Source: Plumapathes pennacea
Taxonomy: Eukaryota > Cnidaria > Anthozoa > Antipatharia > Myriopathidae
Reading direction: 5' to 3'
DNA: 64,000 nucleotides
Assembly (NCBI GenBank): GCA_964036295.1
Contig: OZ038462.1
Coordinates: 40,529,680-40,593,679 of the forward strand
Shown: positions 4,870 through 20,212 of the stretch, in pieces
Layout: each line of letters opens with the position of its first letter
How positions within the stretch are numbered: the stretch's first letter is position 1
Notes under the pieces: generated by a model
Told to the model about the DNA's origin: nothing
The model's database searches: none
The model's input: the letters and a program-made list of their open reading frames with translations, nothing else
Position numbers and translations under genes: made by a program

Positions 4870-6580
4870 GGCTCCATCGATCAACAGTAAACTTGAATAA
4901 TAGATTCTTGTGGCGCACCACAGGCACAGTTTCAAACAAAAAGATGGGCATTTGACCCTTGCGGCGCGCCAGCCAAGTTTCGTTCTTTCAGAAACGATGA
5001 CGTATTTGTTGCTATAGTCACGCTTGCTGTAAATCAAATATTTGAGGTAAGACGCGTTTCGCCACGAGCGAACAAATGGCAGATTTTTGTTACTCCTTTG
5101 TCTTTTCCTGTCGCTATATTATCTTATTTCGCCTTCCAACTTCAGTAAATGCGTAGGAAAGATGCTTATCTGGGATGTATATGCAGCTTTCTTACGCTCG
5201 ATGAGAAATATTTTTAGCTTTTTTGAAGAATCGATCCAATTCAACACGCGCGCGAATAGGTCATATGTCGATATTTCGTACCAAATACGAATTGGTTGCG
5301 GCCGGAGACTCGATCTTTGAAAATTTTACCAGTATTTCTTATTTCCCTCCTGTAAAATATTTCTTTTCTTTTTTATTAGCTTTGATTGACTAAATTTTAT
5401 GTCATTTTAGGATCATATTTTTGTGCTGAATATATGTGAAGATCTTAGGTTTTGTTGTGCAACACAACACTTCACTGTGTATTTTGTTCCAAAGAATATT
5501 AAAATGTGTGTTTCTTTTTTGACTTAAGAGACTTGCAGAACAATAATAACCCTCCTGGTTCTTCAAATAATAAAATTTCTGAAATTTTTGTTGATCACGA
5601 AGTCAGTGACAGTACATGATTCAGGTGACCATGATGATCAACCAATCCAGAGGGGTCGAGCTTAGGGGTCCAGCCAGAGGAAGAGAACGTGGAAGGTGAA
5701 GAGCAAGACAAACATTTTACACTTGTTGACATTATCCATGTTGCTTTACATTACCAGACATGTAATTCCACTGTACCACATTTAGTTAAAGAGTAAGTTT
5801 TGGTCACAAAATAAATACGTTTCTACACAGCTTTTGCCGGTTTCCTCAGTCAACACGCTGCAATTTGATTTCCTGACTCCTTTGACTGCAATTTGTCGTC
5901 CGTAAACTCAGTTCCAACGTCTTTTTTCTTTCCGTATCATCTTCATCCCATACAGGTTTCGGCTAGCATGTTTGGCAACTGAAAGCGGAGAATAAATCCG
6001 AAGACACTGCGACAAAGTTCATGAATAAAACTCGTCTAGCTGCTCCCACTAGCTCGCGTCACTGTCAAAATTTGGCACTGGGGGAGCTAATATTGTGTTC
6101 TTGACTTCCGTTTCCGCTTTGTATCACCGCAACAAGTTTCTTACAGTGTCTGAATCAATTTTATAGTGCAGAATAAATATGTTAAAAATAAAATATGTTT
6201 AAAAGAAGAATTTGAATCGTAAACAAAGTTAAATCAGCCGCGTTACATGACGTAAGATACAGCAAATGCCCGTGGGCAGATATCGGAAAACACTGCACGG
6301 CCAGGGAGCCAATCAGATTGCAGAATTGGTAGGCGTACGGACCGGAAAAAAAACAATGTTTCAAAATCCCAACGAACGCAAAATGCAAGCTTTAAGTCAT
6401 TACCGAACCAGCAACCGACGTACCAGATTTTGACTTGCGCTATAATGCTAAAGACATGATAAACAGAAGGCAAAAACTTTGTGGAAGAAAGACGTCGGAA
6501 GAACAGCCTCTCACCACAACCACCATTCATTTTGACGCAGTTTATGACGGCAATCCATCGAAATGCATGCGATCATTTAT
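4870..6580. other. Non-coding stretch with a fragment of the 8-kb unit
   Basis: No gene recognised. Positions 5620-5695 (gtgaccatgatgatcaacca ... gaggaagagaacgtggaagg) match 8183-8265 of the tandem unit further right. Two overlapping minus-strand frames at 6182-6530 lack homologues, splice context or conserved motifs and are not annotated as genes. Confidence 0.5.
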
Positions 6581-11297: not shown

Positions 11298-12068
11298 ATG
11301 AAATCATGGTTACTCACCAGATATGCATCATCCACATTCAACACATGCCCCCATCGGGCGCTCCCCTGTATGGAGGGGCCATCAATCGAGATGCACGTTT
11401 ATCCAACCGCCACACCAAAGGTCTGTCACACCCCAGCGAATGTACCTCTACACTGGCAGCAGCGTGTACATGACGACCTCCTCCACTACGAAGCCCTTGG
11501 TGTCATCGAGTGAGTACCATACGGCGAACCCATGACGTGGTGCCACTGCATGGTGATAACAAGGAAGCATGATGGTTCCCCCCATTGCACTGTGGACCTC
11601 TCGTCACTGAACAAATATTGCAAACGGGAGACCTTTGCCATGGAATCACCCATTCACCTCACCCGATGGATCCCCAAGGACAGGTGGAAGACCATCACTG
11701 ATGCATGGAACGGTTACCACAGCGTCCCCCTGCATGAGTCTGACTGCCACCTCACCACGTTTGTTACATCGTTTGGCCACTGGCACTACGAGAGGGCGCC
11801 CCAAGGCTTCCTCTCATTGGGGGACGGCTACAATCGCCGCTTTGATGCCGTCCTGTCCGAGTTTGAGTACAAGGAATGCTGCGTGGATGACACAATCCAC
11901 TGTGACAGTGACCTTGAACAGCACTAGTGGAGGACCATTGACCTCCTCACCCATGTCGGTCGAGCGGGTATTGTCCTTAACCCTGACAAGTTTCAATTCA
12001 TGAGGAGAAGCGTGGACTTCGCCGGTTTCAGGGTATCAGATGGGACAATTGAGCCGCTGCCCACGTAG
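11298..12068 (+). pseudogene. Gypsy reverse transcriptase, broken
   Basis: One frame carries the reverse-transcriptase fingers and palm in order: WHWQQRV-type connection, WCHCMVITRKHDGSPHCTVD, LSSLNKYCKRETF, the DAWNGYHSVPL strand, the APQGFLSLGDGY strand and the active-site CVDDT (in place of YxDD), then GRAGIVLNPDKFQF. In-frame stops at 11511 (TGA), 11925 (TAG) and 12066 (TAG) interrupt it. After the last stop the RNase H and the integrase catalytic core are absent. Confidence 0.85.
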
Positions 12069-14810: not shown

Positions 14811-16110
14811 CAGCTCCCGTCAAAAGTTTTAGTTCAATGGACTCTCATTGGTGGAAGTTAATTCCCGACAAACTTAAGCGACCTCGTTTGGTGGCTTAAA
14901 TATTTTGGCTTTTTACGTCAAACCTCTACCCTCTTAACTTTAAGCGAGTTGGAGAGGCAGCTGTTTTCATGAGATTTCCGGAGATCACTCGCTAAGCGAC
15001 TAAAAAAAACCCTCGTGAAAACACGGCCTGTATGAATTAATTTGACGTGCCGACCGTGGGAAATTGACGTACTTCGTCACGCAATCGATTCTTTTTTCAA
15101 CGCAAAAGTATAACACACACATTCTTTTTCTCCTTCCTTTGCGTGTAGCACTTGAGTTCGAAGAAAAGATTGAATCAACATTTCGGCAAAACAAAGGCTA
15201 CTCTTGTTGGGAGTTACCAAAGTAAAAGACCCATCAATGACTCAGTGAGGGGGTATCTGCGATTATCGTATTTCTAGTATGGTATTTCAACAATCGCCGT
15301 ATATTTTGTCGTTTGATGCCCCGAGAACTGTGATGAAGACCAAGTAGGATTATATTGTGATCTTTTCGTTAGTTTTTAAAGCTATTTCAGAGTGCCTTCG
15401 TGCAAGATTGTGTCATCCGATTTCTGACATGTTTGCATATTATTTCACCGACAGTCTGACATATGGAAATGCTGTAAAGTTTTCTCACCGGGTTTGTTGG
15501 CACACTGTATTTAAGGATGAAATGTAACTAGCCGGGTTGAAGTGCTCTTGCTTTTTGAAGGCTATTAAAGTGAAAAATACCCGGCCAGGGGCCACTGCCT
15601 TCCAAATTAAACAATTACAGTCTATATGTATATTATTGTCTATTGTGGCCGAATTTGCTCGCTCAACGCCACAATCAGACCTCGTACTATTTAATGACCG
15701 GGTTGGCTCGCTCAGTACAATCGGAGCTTGTGTTATTTAGTGATTTAATTTCTTTTTTCTGTCAAAGATTTTAAATTCGTCAAACGCGGTTTGAAAAGTT
15801 GTTGTGTTCAAGATTGAATCCTTGCCAAAATTCGGGCAGGTACAAAACCTGGACCCCCCTTTTAGACCCCCATTTGGACCCCCATTTTTTTATAAAAATA
15901 TAAATATATATATTAATAATTAATGATGAAAATATTAATGTAATCGTAACACAATTTCTCATATATAAAAAATGCACTGAAAAGTCACTTTAAAAAAATT
16001 AAAAAAATAGAAAAAAGTATGTCTTTTTGTGTTTTATTCGCTTTATTTTTACTTTATTTATATATTTATTTTTTTGCTAGTACGAGCAGGCACGCGCAAA
16101 CGCAAATGCA
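14811..16110. other. Non-coding stretch
   Basis: No gene. At 15648-15741 a unit of about 45 bp (tttgctcgctca...ctatttaatg / ttggctcgctca...gttatttagtg) is tandemly duplicated. At 15855-15888 a G/C patch repeats gacccccattt. AT-rich runs occur around 15890-16080. Confidence 0.5.
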
Positions 16111-16116
16111 AGCGAC

Positions 16117-16204
16117 TGGTTCACATGGTGAAATTGGTGAAGCAAGCCCAAAAGAATGGAAAAGTTTCCATTCTCTTGCGCTTGCTTACCGTGTGAACCA
16201 GCCT
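16117..16204. repeat. Small foldback element
   Basis: ctggttcacatggtgaa ... agaatggaaa pairs with tttccattct ... accgtgtgaaccag. Nearly continuous inverted repeat of about 88 bp with no coding capacity. Confidence 0.8.
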
Positions 16205-16504
16205 TAAAGCCACATGTGTCAATAATAGAACACAAGTCTCCCGTGTGCCAGGGCCGGAAAGATCTGATCTCCAGTCGTGCAGCGGTCCTGATTGATGCTT
16301 TCAAAGATGCCTGAATATCTGTGTCAACGACTTTTTTATGGACAGCATTTTTTCTAACACCAATAGAAACAAAAATTAAAGGCTACTGTGAAGCGGCGTT
16401 GAAACTGACTCATGCAGTACATTATTTCATACGGAATTGAGACACACCGGGTGTGGTCCTAGTCTGGCTATTGTCTTTCCTGGTCATTGTTCTGGTTGTA
16501 ACAT

Positions 16505-17480
16505 AATCAGTGGCAATTTCCGGCAATTCTACTTTTTTGTTGAAACTCGAATTTGGAATCACGAAAATAAAGGAAAAACCAATTCTTAGCGCTATTCTTT
16601 CTTGGGAAAGTTGAAATACCCCAATTATTTTCTACGTCGTTGTATTCGGTCTGCAACGTAAATATTCTCGACCTTTCTGAATAAAAATCTCGATCTTTTC
16701 TGAGATTTGTTCCGGCCAGTAGTTTGGGGAAATGTCAGACATTTTCTCACGTTTGTCTGTCGGTTCGTGTCTCGGAACAAGCCTTTCTCATGCTGTTCCC
16801 ACGTGACTTTTCGTATAAAACAACTTCGCGCCACTTGCTCGCCGGGTTTTGGCGCGACGACACGTGCACGGCAAGATGTCTTTTGTAAAAGATAAACGAA
16901 AGGGCAAACTGGTGAAGGTAAAAATATCAGACTTAACAGTTAAAAGCATTTCAATGATCTTTAAGTTGAATGCGATGAAAGGAGTTTACCTGGAAGATGA
17001 AATCGAAGGAGCGGTGATACTTAAAGATCATTGAAATGCTTTTAACTGTTAAGTCTGATATTTTTACCTTCACCAGTTTGCCCTTTCGTTTATCTTTTAC
17101 AAAAGACATCTTGCCGTGCACGTGTCGTCGCGCCAAAACCCGGCGAGCAAGTGGCGCGAAGTTGTTTTATACGAAAAGTCACGTGGGAACAGCATGAGAA
17201 AGGCTTGTTCCGAGACACGAACCGACAGACAAACGTGAGAAAATGTCTGACATTTCCCCAAACTACTGGCCGGAACAAATCTCAGAAAAGATCGAGATTT
17301 TTATTCAGAAAGGTCGAGAATATTTACGTTGCAGACCGAATACAACGACGTAGAAAATAATTGGGGTATTTCAACTTTCCCAAGAAAGAATAGCGCTAAG
17401 AATTGGTTTTTCCTTTATTTTCGTGATTCCAAATTCGAGTTTCAACAAAAAAGTAGAATTGCCGGAAATTGCCACTGATT
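16505..17480. mobile_element. Perfect long palindrome (2 x 462 bp, 52-nt spacer) with 6-bp flanking repeat
   Basis: Arm 16505-16966 is the reverse complement of 17019-17480; reading across both I find no mismatch. The spacer is 16967-17018. The element is flanked on both sides by TAACAT (16499-16504 and 17481-17486), as expected for a target-site duplication. Each arm carries an ATG frame starting MSFVKDKRKGKLVKV (16876 in the left arm) with a possible donor (aag/gtaaaa), behind a CG-richer region. In the left arm it reads on into the spacer (LNAMKGVYLEDEIEG). This may be a captured promoter and first exon. It looks like a recent foldback-type insertion; an inverted assembly join is less likely because of the flanking repeat. 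Confidence 0.85.
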
Positions 17481-17546
17481 TAACATGCAGGCAGTTACCT
17501 CGTTTATATGCGCGATTTCTTCATTATTGCAACACAGACGAAACTT

Positions 17547-17902
17547 GTTTTTACCACAACACACTAGTTTCTCGCTCTCTGATTGGTCGATTTACCGTGG
17601 TAAATAAGAGTCCAGACAACGATGCTGACGCCAGCTGACGCCAGCATGTCACGTTTTGAAGCGAAGTACAACAAATGTTTCCTGTATATTTCTAAATGTT
17701 GTGGTAAAAAACAAATTTCCACTGGTTAGCCGTGGTGTGGACTCTTATTTACCACGATTTACGTCATCACATGGTCAAAATTAGTTGCGGACTCACTCGG
17801 CGAAGCGCCTCGTGAGTCCAGAACATTTTGACCATGTGATGACGTAAATCGTGGTAAATAAGAGTCCACACCACGGCAAACCAGTGGAAATTTATTAAAT
17901 AG
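17547..17902 (+). mobile_element. MITE with internal inverted repeats, copy 1
   Basis: About 355 bp, from ttaccacaacacactagttt to ccagtggaaatttattaaat. A nearly full copy lies at 28646-28994. The inner half is palindromic: ggtgtggactcttatttacc pairs with ggtaaataagagtccacacc, around cgaagcgcctcgtgag. Confidence 0.85.
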
Positions 17903-17927
17903 TTACGCGAGAGATCTTAGATTGAAC

Positions 17928-18056
17928 ATGGATTCATTTTTAAAGCCAGGCACCAGTTATGCGCAGGCTGTTGCTCCCTCTAGCCCTACTCTGAGGAAGT
18001 TTCAACGACAGGACGAGGACGAGGCAATGGAGATGGCTCTTGCCATGTCACTGAAG
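17928..18056 (+). CDS. Orphan first exon with ubiquitin-interacting-type motif
   Basis: ATG 17928 opens MDSFLKPGTSYAQAVAP and ends in DEDEAMEMALAMSLK at a good donor (aag/gtgagg at 18057). The acidic run followed by M.MALAMSL matches the UIM consensus (acidic patch, phi-x-x-Ala-x-x-x-Ser). UIM helices bind ubiquitin. No downstream exon could be assigned on this strand before the repeats at 18.5 kb, so the gene is incomplete, broken or has a long intron. The MITE ending at 17902 sits just upstream of the start codon. Confidence 0.5.
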
Positions 18057-18474
18057 GTGAGGGTTGTCCACTGCCCAGTGTACATCATCTTTGGTGGCCA
18101 TTGTTTATTAACATCGACGTTTATTTGGTTGGTGTTATAGGTTGCGGAATATTCATTGCTGTTTTGTTATGTTATTTTCTTTGACTTTGTTATAGAATGT
18201 AATCAATAAAAGCACAATCTCCCACATCTATTGTTTACATTCTCTTGTTAAAGTTACTGTATAATGAATGATTCGAAAACGCCGGCATAGTTGTCGTAAC
18301 AAAATATATTACAAGGCTTTCTATTTACTTTCTAATCGTTTTTTTATACCTGCACGGCCAAAAATTTTTCCTGTGAAAATCTGAATAGTTTTACGTTAAA
18401 TTTTATGGAGCTGAGAAAAAGTGAGAAATGTATTATTACAAATAAAGATATTATTGATAATATGATTTAATAAT
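18057..18474. other. AT-rich non-coding stretch
   Basis: No gene or clear repeat visible. Confidence 0.4.
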
Positions 18475-20212
18475 AACAAGACTGGTATTGCCAGTGAGCT
18501 CGTGGCGTGAGTTGGGTCGAGACGAGAATAAACTAACATTAAAAGTAGGGACAAGAGCGAGACTCCCAGGAGGGGGGGGAGGGGGGTACTCATCATAATT
18601 TTGGGTGGGTGTGCTGCCCAGTCCTGAAAACGCTTAGCTTATTTCAGACCAAGATATCTGATTTTCTATAACCTAACTTTAAAAATGTATACGGCACATA
18701 CCTAATGTGGCTGATATAGTGGAGTACCCCATCGGGTTTCAGTCTCACCAGAAAAATATTATACAGCATAGAGAACTTGGTTTTTGAGACCTTGCTCAAA
18801 GGAAACCTGATAAAATTATAAATTTTCATAGAACACTCATACATTTGCTTCAAGTTTAAGAGATGCATTTTGAGCTTAGGGGTGATAGGTCAGCCAGCAA
18901 GAGAAGAGTGACTTGCGACACTTACTGTATTTATGCACAGCTGATTTTGACAGTTTGACTTCGAGCACTTATTTCTAATCAGAGGCCACGATTAATCCAG
19001 CCTTTGCTCCAATAATAATCTGTTTTCTTTTTACTGACTGAGTTTCTTTTATTAGGCTTTCGAGTATTCGTGCTTTGTAACAAAAATAAAATTGAAGGTG
19101 AGGAATGTAAGAAGTGAACTCTGCCTCATGCAAGAGTTTCTGCATGGAAATGATAGAACCAGAGGTGTGCAAGCACAGTACAGTCTGTATTTATTCATCA
19201 GACACTCTATCAAGAAACAATAAATTATACACATGTTATTTTGTCAGCTGGCAACAGAAAGCCAGTATTATTCCTATTGTTTTGTGTAATAAGTTCATGA
19301 AGATTCTGCTTGCTTAAACTTTTGTCCTTAGACAGAACCCCTTGTCTTTTAGCAGTAAAGACAACATTAACATCAGTGCCTGCACATATCTCTAGTTTAT
19401 TTGGTAAATCACTTATCACAAGGTGTTTGTCAACATTCATTTTCCTGTAAAATGTGTTACCTTTTTCAATTACAGCACTTAATGTATCAGAATTCCAATA
19501 GCTGCAAGATTTAATTACAGAGAAACAAATGCTATAGGAAGAAATTGCACAGCACTGCTTACATTTGCAAATAATTGCATGCTTTACTTCTTTGCTGAAC
19601 AGTTGTAGGTTCTTCACATCTGTGCCTGTTGTGTCTGTCTTCTGTTAGACAAATGTTTACTCCTTTAATTTCAAATGTAATGGCAGGCAAGTGTACATAT
19701 AAAGTCTGGAAATATTCCAATAAATTGCCAACTGAACGAAGTTCAATTAATACACATTTTCCTTCAGGATGTTCCATGCCAAAACTATCTCTGCTATGAG
19801 AATCAAATACTTTGAACCTGCCACCTGACAAACAAAATACAGCTACAGTACTACAGCCTATTGTCAGAATAAAGCAGCTGAAATCCTGTCTGAGCAATAA
19901 ATTAAAAGCCCCAGTCAGTGTTGTACAGTAAGCAAAGATGGGGTACTCCGCTATATCAGCCACATTAGGTATGTGCCGTATACATTTTTAAAGTTAGGTT
20001 ATAGAAAATCAGATATCTTGGTCTGAAATAGGCTAAGCGTTTTCAGGACTGGGCAGCACACCCACCCAAAATTATGATGAGTACCCCCCTCCCACCCCCC
20101 CCCCCCCCCCCCCCCTCCTGGGAGTCTCGCTGTTGTCCCTACTTTTAATGTTAGTTTATTCTCGTCTCAACCCAACTCACGCCACGAGCTCACTGGCAAT
20201 TCCAGTCTTGTT
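18475..20212. mobile_element. DNA-transposon-like element with TIRs of about 260 bp and a protease-like gene
   Basis: Left arm 18475-18732 (aacaagactggtattgccag ... gatatagtggagtaccccat) is the inverted copy of 19938-20212. The arms differ by point changes and by the length of a G/C homopolymer (18570-18587 versus 20090-20115). The interior (18733-19937) has no recognisable transposase but carries two minus-strand frames described separately. No convincing target duplication is visible. Confidence 0.85.
19225..19963 (-). pseudogene. Protease-like protein inside the TIR element, frameshifted
   Basis: Two overlapping frames read as one broken protein. The first (19963-19559) starts within the right TIR (MADIAEYPIFAYC). 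It contains FKVFDSHSRDSFGMEHPEGK followed by VLIELRSVGNLLEYFQTL. The second (19617-19225) has a Cys cluster and SDLPNKLEIC. The F-D-S/P-H-S-R core with a following G....G and a hydrophobic strand is the signature of a cysteine-peptidase-like domain seen in many transposon- or virus-derived proteins of fish and cnidarians (tegument-peptidase/OTU-like); Asp and His would be catalytic. This assignment comes from pattern memory. Confidence 0.5.

Follow-up and report, generated by a model that had tools for sequence, protein, structure and literature searches.

A perfect palindrome in Plumapathes pennacea as a probable gene-converted foldback derivative of a 5.7-kb integrase-type DNA transposon

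The window, a stretch of 64,000 nucleotides of the Plumapathes pennacea genome (assembly GCA_964036295.1, contig OZ038462.1; C1:40529680-40593679), contains a 976-bp element that consists of a left arm (positions 16505-16966, + strand), a 52-nt spacer (16967-17018, + strand) and a right arm (17019-17480, - strand). Each arm is 462 nt long, and the two are complementary at 462 of 462 positions. The hexamer TAACAT stands at both borders, as a left (16499-16504) and a right (17481-17486) target-site duplication, and both the perfect palindrome with its 52-nt spacer and the border repeats, as described in an initial annotation made from the sequence, were confirmed by arm comparison and border reading. 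The GC content of the arm is 40% overall. Each arm carries a TATAAAA box (16814-16820, + strand; mirror box at 17165-17171, - strand) that faces inward, lies 62 bp before an ATG and presumably acts as a promoter. The ATG opens a 52-codon frame starting MSFVKDKRKGKLVKV (16876-17034, + strand), and a mirror 52-codon frame (16951-17109, - strand) starts in the right arm and crosses the spacer in the opposite direction. Scanning of positions 15500-18500 against Rfam gave no match at gathering scores, and comparison of the window arm with a phage collection gave no match. In the same interval, the next-longest inverted pair has 72-nt arms at 97% identity, and an inverted repeat of these dimensions, separate from the palindrome and with 43 nt between its arms, lies at 17710-17896. 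About 450 bp to the right of the palindrome, an ATG frame beginning MDSFLKPGTSYAQAVAPSS (17928-18056) ends near a GT and is possibly a gene start. Farther away, a frame at 50460-50918 matches the SKI/SNO/DAC Dachshund domain (E 1.1e-31), and a weak reverse transcriptase match at 11532-11927, below the cut-off (E 0.0015), is possibly a decayed retroelement.

The initial annotation had taken the TAACAT repeats as an argument for insertion. A search of the same genome (290 Mb, 24 contigs) with the joined flanks of the palindrome, in which 40 of 1525 candidates were scored and 41 matches were listed, returned at least 13 places that aligned straight across the junction without the insert, at 91-96% identity. 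One of these (C11:15723014-15723465) aligned over all 440 nt at 95%; the other listed matches were the element's own two flanks, 25 places with similarity to the right part alone, and a single short fragment. Since the flanking sequence is itself repeated, the 13 insert-free matches are to be read as related empty sites and not as alleles. Together with the identical 6-bp flanks of 19 of 26 copies of the family described below, they uphold the insertion. A stretch to the right of the palindrome (17548-17706) was found in at least 25 other places, at 95-98%, among the 41 matches listed, and it therefore belongs to another repeat family.

As had been proposed, the genome was searched for further copies of the arm with 6-bp duplications. 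A query of arm plus spacer gave at least 98 matching stretches (40 of 128 candidates scored), and the spacer-arm junction GGTGATACTTAAAGATCATTGAA, allowing up to 2 mismatches, occurred 75 times in the genome, compared to 0 times for the reversed control. A second centre pattern, with 22 occurrences (control 0), each adjoining one of the 75 junction centres, marks a centre-deleted subtype, type B, in which one arm and 8 nt of the spacer are kept while the rest of the spacer and the inner part of the other arm are lost. This leaves 53 centres without the type B mark; the loci examined hold 42 distinct centres, and both arms were typed in 26 copies. The spacer sequence is nearly constant among the 42 centres, which points to a single origin of the palindrome family. 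The 6-bp flanks are not identical in the remaining 7 of the 26 two-armed copies. With long inverted arms, no transposase, multiple copies and target duplications, the family has the features by which foldback, or non-autonomous palindromic, transposons are recognized.

Several copies have been rearranged further. Nested palindromes occur in the arms of other copies at arm positions 290-295 (TGTTCC; L002 and L011) and 236-241 (CATTTT; L005 and L042/L057), the inner copies varying in type or orientation, and these two positions are possible hot spots of self-insertion. At another locus (L028, 343-2019; C1:4999790-5001466), CACCCC bounds two joined palindromes, adjoining the left end of the first and the right end of the second; this is the arrangement that would result had a nested pair moved with one end taken from each palindrome. 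A 635-bp derivative (type C; L067, 1501-2135) has the left terminal repeat (209 bp) joined to position 5163 of the parental transposon, the same breakpoint as in the palindrome, and the same junction occurs with further insertions in L034 and L039.

The parental transposon was read end to end in one copy (C3:8206238-8211927; L091:139-5828), where it measures 5690 bp between the outer ends of its terminal repeats (about 310 bp each, 95.8% identical) and is flanked on both sides by a 6-bp duplication, GAATCG. The window arm and spacer match the right end of this copy at 93.5% identity across 526 columns, and for the left end the match is confined to the first 296 bases. The 462-bp palindrome arms thus exceed the parental repeat of about 310 bp, and beyond about position 296 they match the parental right end only; judged by these alignments, the palindrome is the parent's right end in inverted duplication. 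On the + strand, the parent carries transposase exons which, when joined by hand in L091, match the PF24764 rva_4 integrase core (E 4e-14; 53.2 bits against a cut-off of 26). The joined transposase matched 63 proteins of 477 candidates, the best being from the coral Desmophyllum pertusum (74% over 73% of the query) and others from anemones, corals, sponges, fish and a hemichordate, which points to a probable anthozoan cnidarian host; the names of the matching proteins shown give no superfamily. On the - strand lies a second gene that begins MSFVKVKRKGKLVKV, the frame that is found in the palindrome. Its product (311 aa, the frames being joined by guess, which may cost hits) matched 0 of 1845 candidates at E ≤0.001, and a RING-like stretch scored below the cut-off (E 0.027). 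Two further such elements are indicated in C6: a parental pattern gave 3 exact hits (one extra hit had 3 mismatches; the control gave 2), and these three places also contain transposase exons at 92-98%. In each of the two C6 elements, some 2 kb of the right half was read, at 96-98% identity. Three indicated parent copies thus stand against 75 palindrome centres.

The origin of the two arms was followed in an alignment of 32 left and 32 right distinct arms of type A copies (from the 42 distinct centres), together with both parental ends. Left and right arms differ in 21 columns, which were merged to 14 diagnostic sites with a left-type (L) and a right-type (R) state, and most typed copies are mainly L on the left arm and R on the right arm. 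The window copy is R in both arms, with one L site (307) in both, and its arms show 0 differences, compared to 5-32 in the other 25 two-arm copies. It has two sister copies, L031 (C1:36152332-36153311) and L033 (C3:1535742-1536721). The window right arm shows 0 differences in 462 bp from that of L031 and 1 from that of L033, and one sister, located elsewhere in the genome, shares the window copy's right arm and spacer without any difference. The left arms of L031 and L033 are identical to each other; of their 11 sites up to position 325, 10 show the L state, and the final three sites are R. They are thus not pure L, sites 90, 369, 410 and 433 being R. The window left arm departs from that of L031 by 13 substitutions and 3 indels, all of them within arm positions 44 to 371, and these define the minimal converted tract (16548-16875, + strand). 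Given sister copies with the same right arm and a mainly L left arm, the window left arm was probably overwritten from the right arm over at least about 328 of its 462 bp. A short L-state tract at arm positions 307-312, present in both window arms and in the right arms of L031 and L033, indicates that the donor was a right arm of this subfamily; most simply, it would have been the window copy's own right arm. In an arm tree (32 sequences; first 300 arm positions; 16 of the 26 two-arm copies), a 100/99 branch separates 15 left arms from 16 right arms plus the window left arm. This tree left out the mosaic-armed L003, L005, L019, L041, L047, L048 and L083, as well as L018 and L045, in which an inner site is switched, and L051, whose flanks are the same as those of L013. 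The perfect arm identity of the window copy is not simply youth: youth alone was rejected by the arm haplotypes, the L/R sister copies and the tree. The initial annotation had offered great youth or gene conversion, and both seem to hold, youth for the right arm and spacer, which are identical to those of a sister, and conversion for the left arm, which bears the right-arm haplotype.

Exchange between arms is seen elsewhere in the family. Mosaic arms, defined by a run of at least 3 adjacent foreign diagnostic sites, were found in 10 of the 26 two-arm copies; three of the 10 (window, L031 and L033) share part of the foreign run by descent, and L013 and L051 seem to go back to a single insertion that lies in duplicated DNA. 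In L003 both arms are swapped at 13 sites (44 to 410) and the innermost site is unswapped, apparently the pattern that a centre-inverting crossover would give. In L017/L083 the outer right arm is L-type, and the symmetry runs past the element (C1:27767619-27768604 plus flanks), forming a palindrome at 360-2697 of L017 that reaches into a 166-bp tandem repeat on both sides; both copying past the element end and an assembly fault in the array could account for the extended symmetry. The parental right end itself carries mixed L and R states, and some of the mosaics may therefore be older than the palindrome or reflect exchange among copies.

Overall, these results support the hypothesis, to which we assign a probability of about 0.8, that the window element is a non-autonomous palindromic (foldback) derivative of the 5.7-kb integrase-type DNA transposon whose left arm has been converted from the right. 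From its anatomy, the palindrome would have arisen, probably once, when the parental right end became fused with its own inverted copy by a jump from parental position 5162 to 5218 at an ACTT microhomology. It would then have spread to the 75 centres, as their distribution with the same junction and typically 6-bp duplications indicates, presumably mobilised by the transposase of the few full-length copies. Gene conversion and, in what appear to be some cases, crossover would subsequently have exchanged sequence between the arms, and in the window copy one event would have replaced at least about 328 of the 462 bp of the left arm with right-arm sequence, yielding the perfect palindrome. Cruciform formation, break repair and replication template switching are candidate routes of this conversion.

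The source of the overwriting sequence could have been another copy of the element rather than the window copy's own right arm; the identical right arm of L031 and the nested copies, which bring elements together, fit such an ectopic event, but it needs a second locus when an identical donor lies 52 nt away, and the arm swap within one element in L003 is most simply an internal exchange, so we regard an ectopic source as unlikely. We consider it rather improbable that the true left arm is L-type and that assembly or polishing pulled its consensus to the right arm. Near-identical inverted arms are hard for a consensus and the analysis rests on the assembly; against this, the same assembly keeps the arms distinct in the other 25 two-arm copies, and the flanks, duplication and size of the window copy fit the family. 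If, instead, the window copy were a newly formed or ancestral perfect palindrome and the arm differences elsewhere were later mutations, its 462/462 identity and the identity of its right arm to that of a sister copy would be expected; but in most other typed copies it is the same 14 sites that distinguish the arms, left arms cluster together at 100/99 and one junction is common to all 75 centres. The L/R state is thus most simply older than the window copy, and we hold this alternative to be very improbable.

The initial annotation had suggested that a host promoter and first exon, with a donor-like end, may have been captured, a reading under which the element would make a regulatory hairpin. 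A TATA box and an ATG frame are indeed present. The arm and spacer, however, match the right end of the 5.7-kb transposon at 93.5%, where the same frame starts an element-internal gene, the second gene of the parent; host exon capture was rejected on this match, one search with the joined frames of that gene gave no single-copy host homologue, and the proposal is hardly credible. The frame does not end at the supposed donor but continues for 52 codons to a stop just past the spacer, and in the full-length element it is open well past this point, so a splice there is needless. The TATA box at 16814 faces the centre, and a transcript started from it would therefore pair over only about 120 bp; the 460-bp RNA hairpin that had been ascribed to the element's transcript is, as stated, unsupported for its own promoter, and the full 462-bp hairpin would need read-through transcription from outside. 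At the putative promoter position, the majority letters are CGTATAAAACAAC in L-type arms and ACAAAAAAACAAC in R-type arms. Of the 32 distinct left arms, 20 have TATAAAA, the L-haplotype state, compared to 6 of 32 distinct right arms. Five of the 26 two-arm copies, including the window copy, carry it on each side of the centre, and conversion thus seems to move the TATA box between arms.

Perfect palindromes tend to be taken for brand new or for artefacts, and the two options of the initial annotation came near to this; the sister copies help to tell such cases apart here. A specific event, in which one arm was overwritten by the other, would explain a perfect palindrome, and unconverted sisters are at hand for comparison. 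Within a single animal genome, the family supplies dozens of marked inverted repeats from which the frequency and extent of arm conversion could be measured, and it could also show whether arms extend into their flanks and whether palindromes restrain the parent transposon. A speculative and rather doubtful extension is that the family is a natural recorder of palindrome exchange and that copies with two facing promoters might give rise to double-stranded RNA directed at the second gene of the parent. If the family were such a recorder, it would offer near-identical inverted repeats of about 980 bp with 14 built-in markers, spanning conversion, apparent crossover (L003), possible flank extension (L017/L083) and complete homogenisation (window).

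In the literature, surveyed mostly as search listings, arm conversion was not seen to be reported for any palindromic element of this group. The element ends, AATCAGTGG...CCACTGATT, directly adjoin the duplications and read AA..TT. In the account of IS3EU and GingerRoot (PMC10045372), complete IS3EU families always have TA..TA ends, GingerRoot ends are mostly TA..TA and occasionally TG..CA, 6-bp duplications are the usual state in IS3EU and are also given for GingerRoot, and the DDD/E transposase is related to integrases. The present family shares with them an integrase-type DDE transposase in the autonomous partner and the 6-bp duplication, and differs in its AA..TT ends; given these ends, we use IS3EU/GingerRoot-like as a name only, for a likeness in integrase core and duplication that would not place the element within either group. 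In maize, Mu killer contains part of a transposase gene, and a hairpin RNA of about 4 kb has been proposed and silencing reported (PMC3440606). As in Mu killer, an end of the parent together with the start of a parental gene is inversely duplicated here, and the palindrome could in principle give a hairpin RNA against the parent; in contrast, what its arms contain is the beginning of a second gene, and there are about 75 short copies. Sex-chromosome palindromes, whose arms are kept alike by arm-to-arm gene conversion (PMC8981503; PMC5997626), are large, over 10 kb in mouse, compared to a multicopy mobile element of 976 bp. For Tetris, a foldback element of Drosophila virilis that is likewise non-autonomous, the authors mention possible homogenization of repeats inside copies (PMC4079207); Tetris differs in its 8-10 bp duplications, its suggested Mutator affiliation, its satellite-forming tandem units within the repeats and in that no autonomous partner was found. 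The Galileo 2RT ("two extended or recombinant TIR") copies of Drosophila mojavensis are non-autonomous copies whose repeats have grown by recruiting internal sequence to give TIR1-F1-F1-TIR2, and the authors propose recombination and conversion between the long repeats and report chimeric copies (PMC3573991). As in these copies, the palindrome arms exceed the parental terminal repeat and contain parental internal sequence. Galileo belongs to the P-element superfamily, with 7-bp flanks and internally repetitive repeats, and the integrase core and 6-bp duplication rule out membership in Galileo proper; the present family differs further in that a single junction recurs at 75 places and in that one copy, whose arms are fully identical, exists alongside L/R sisters.
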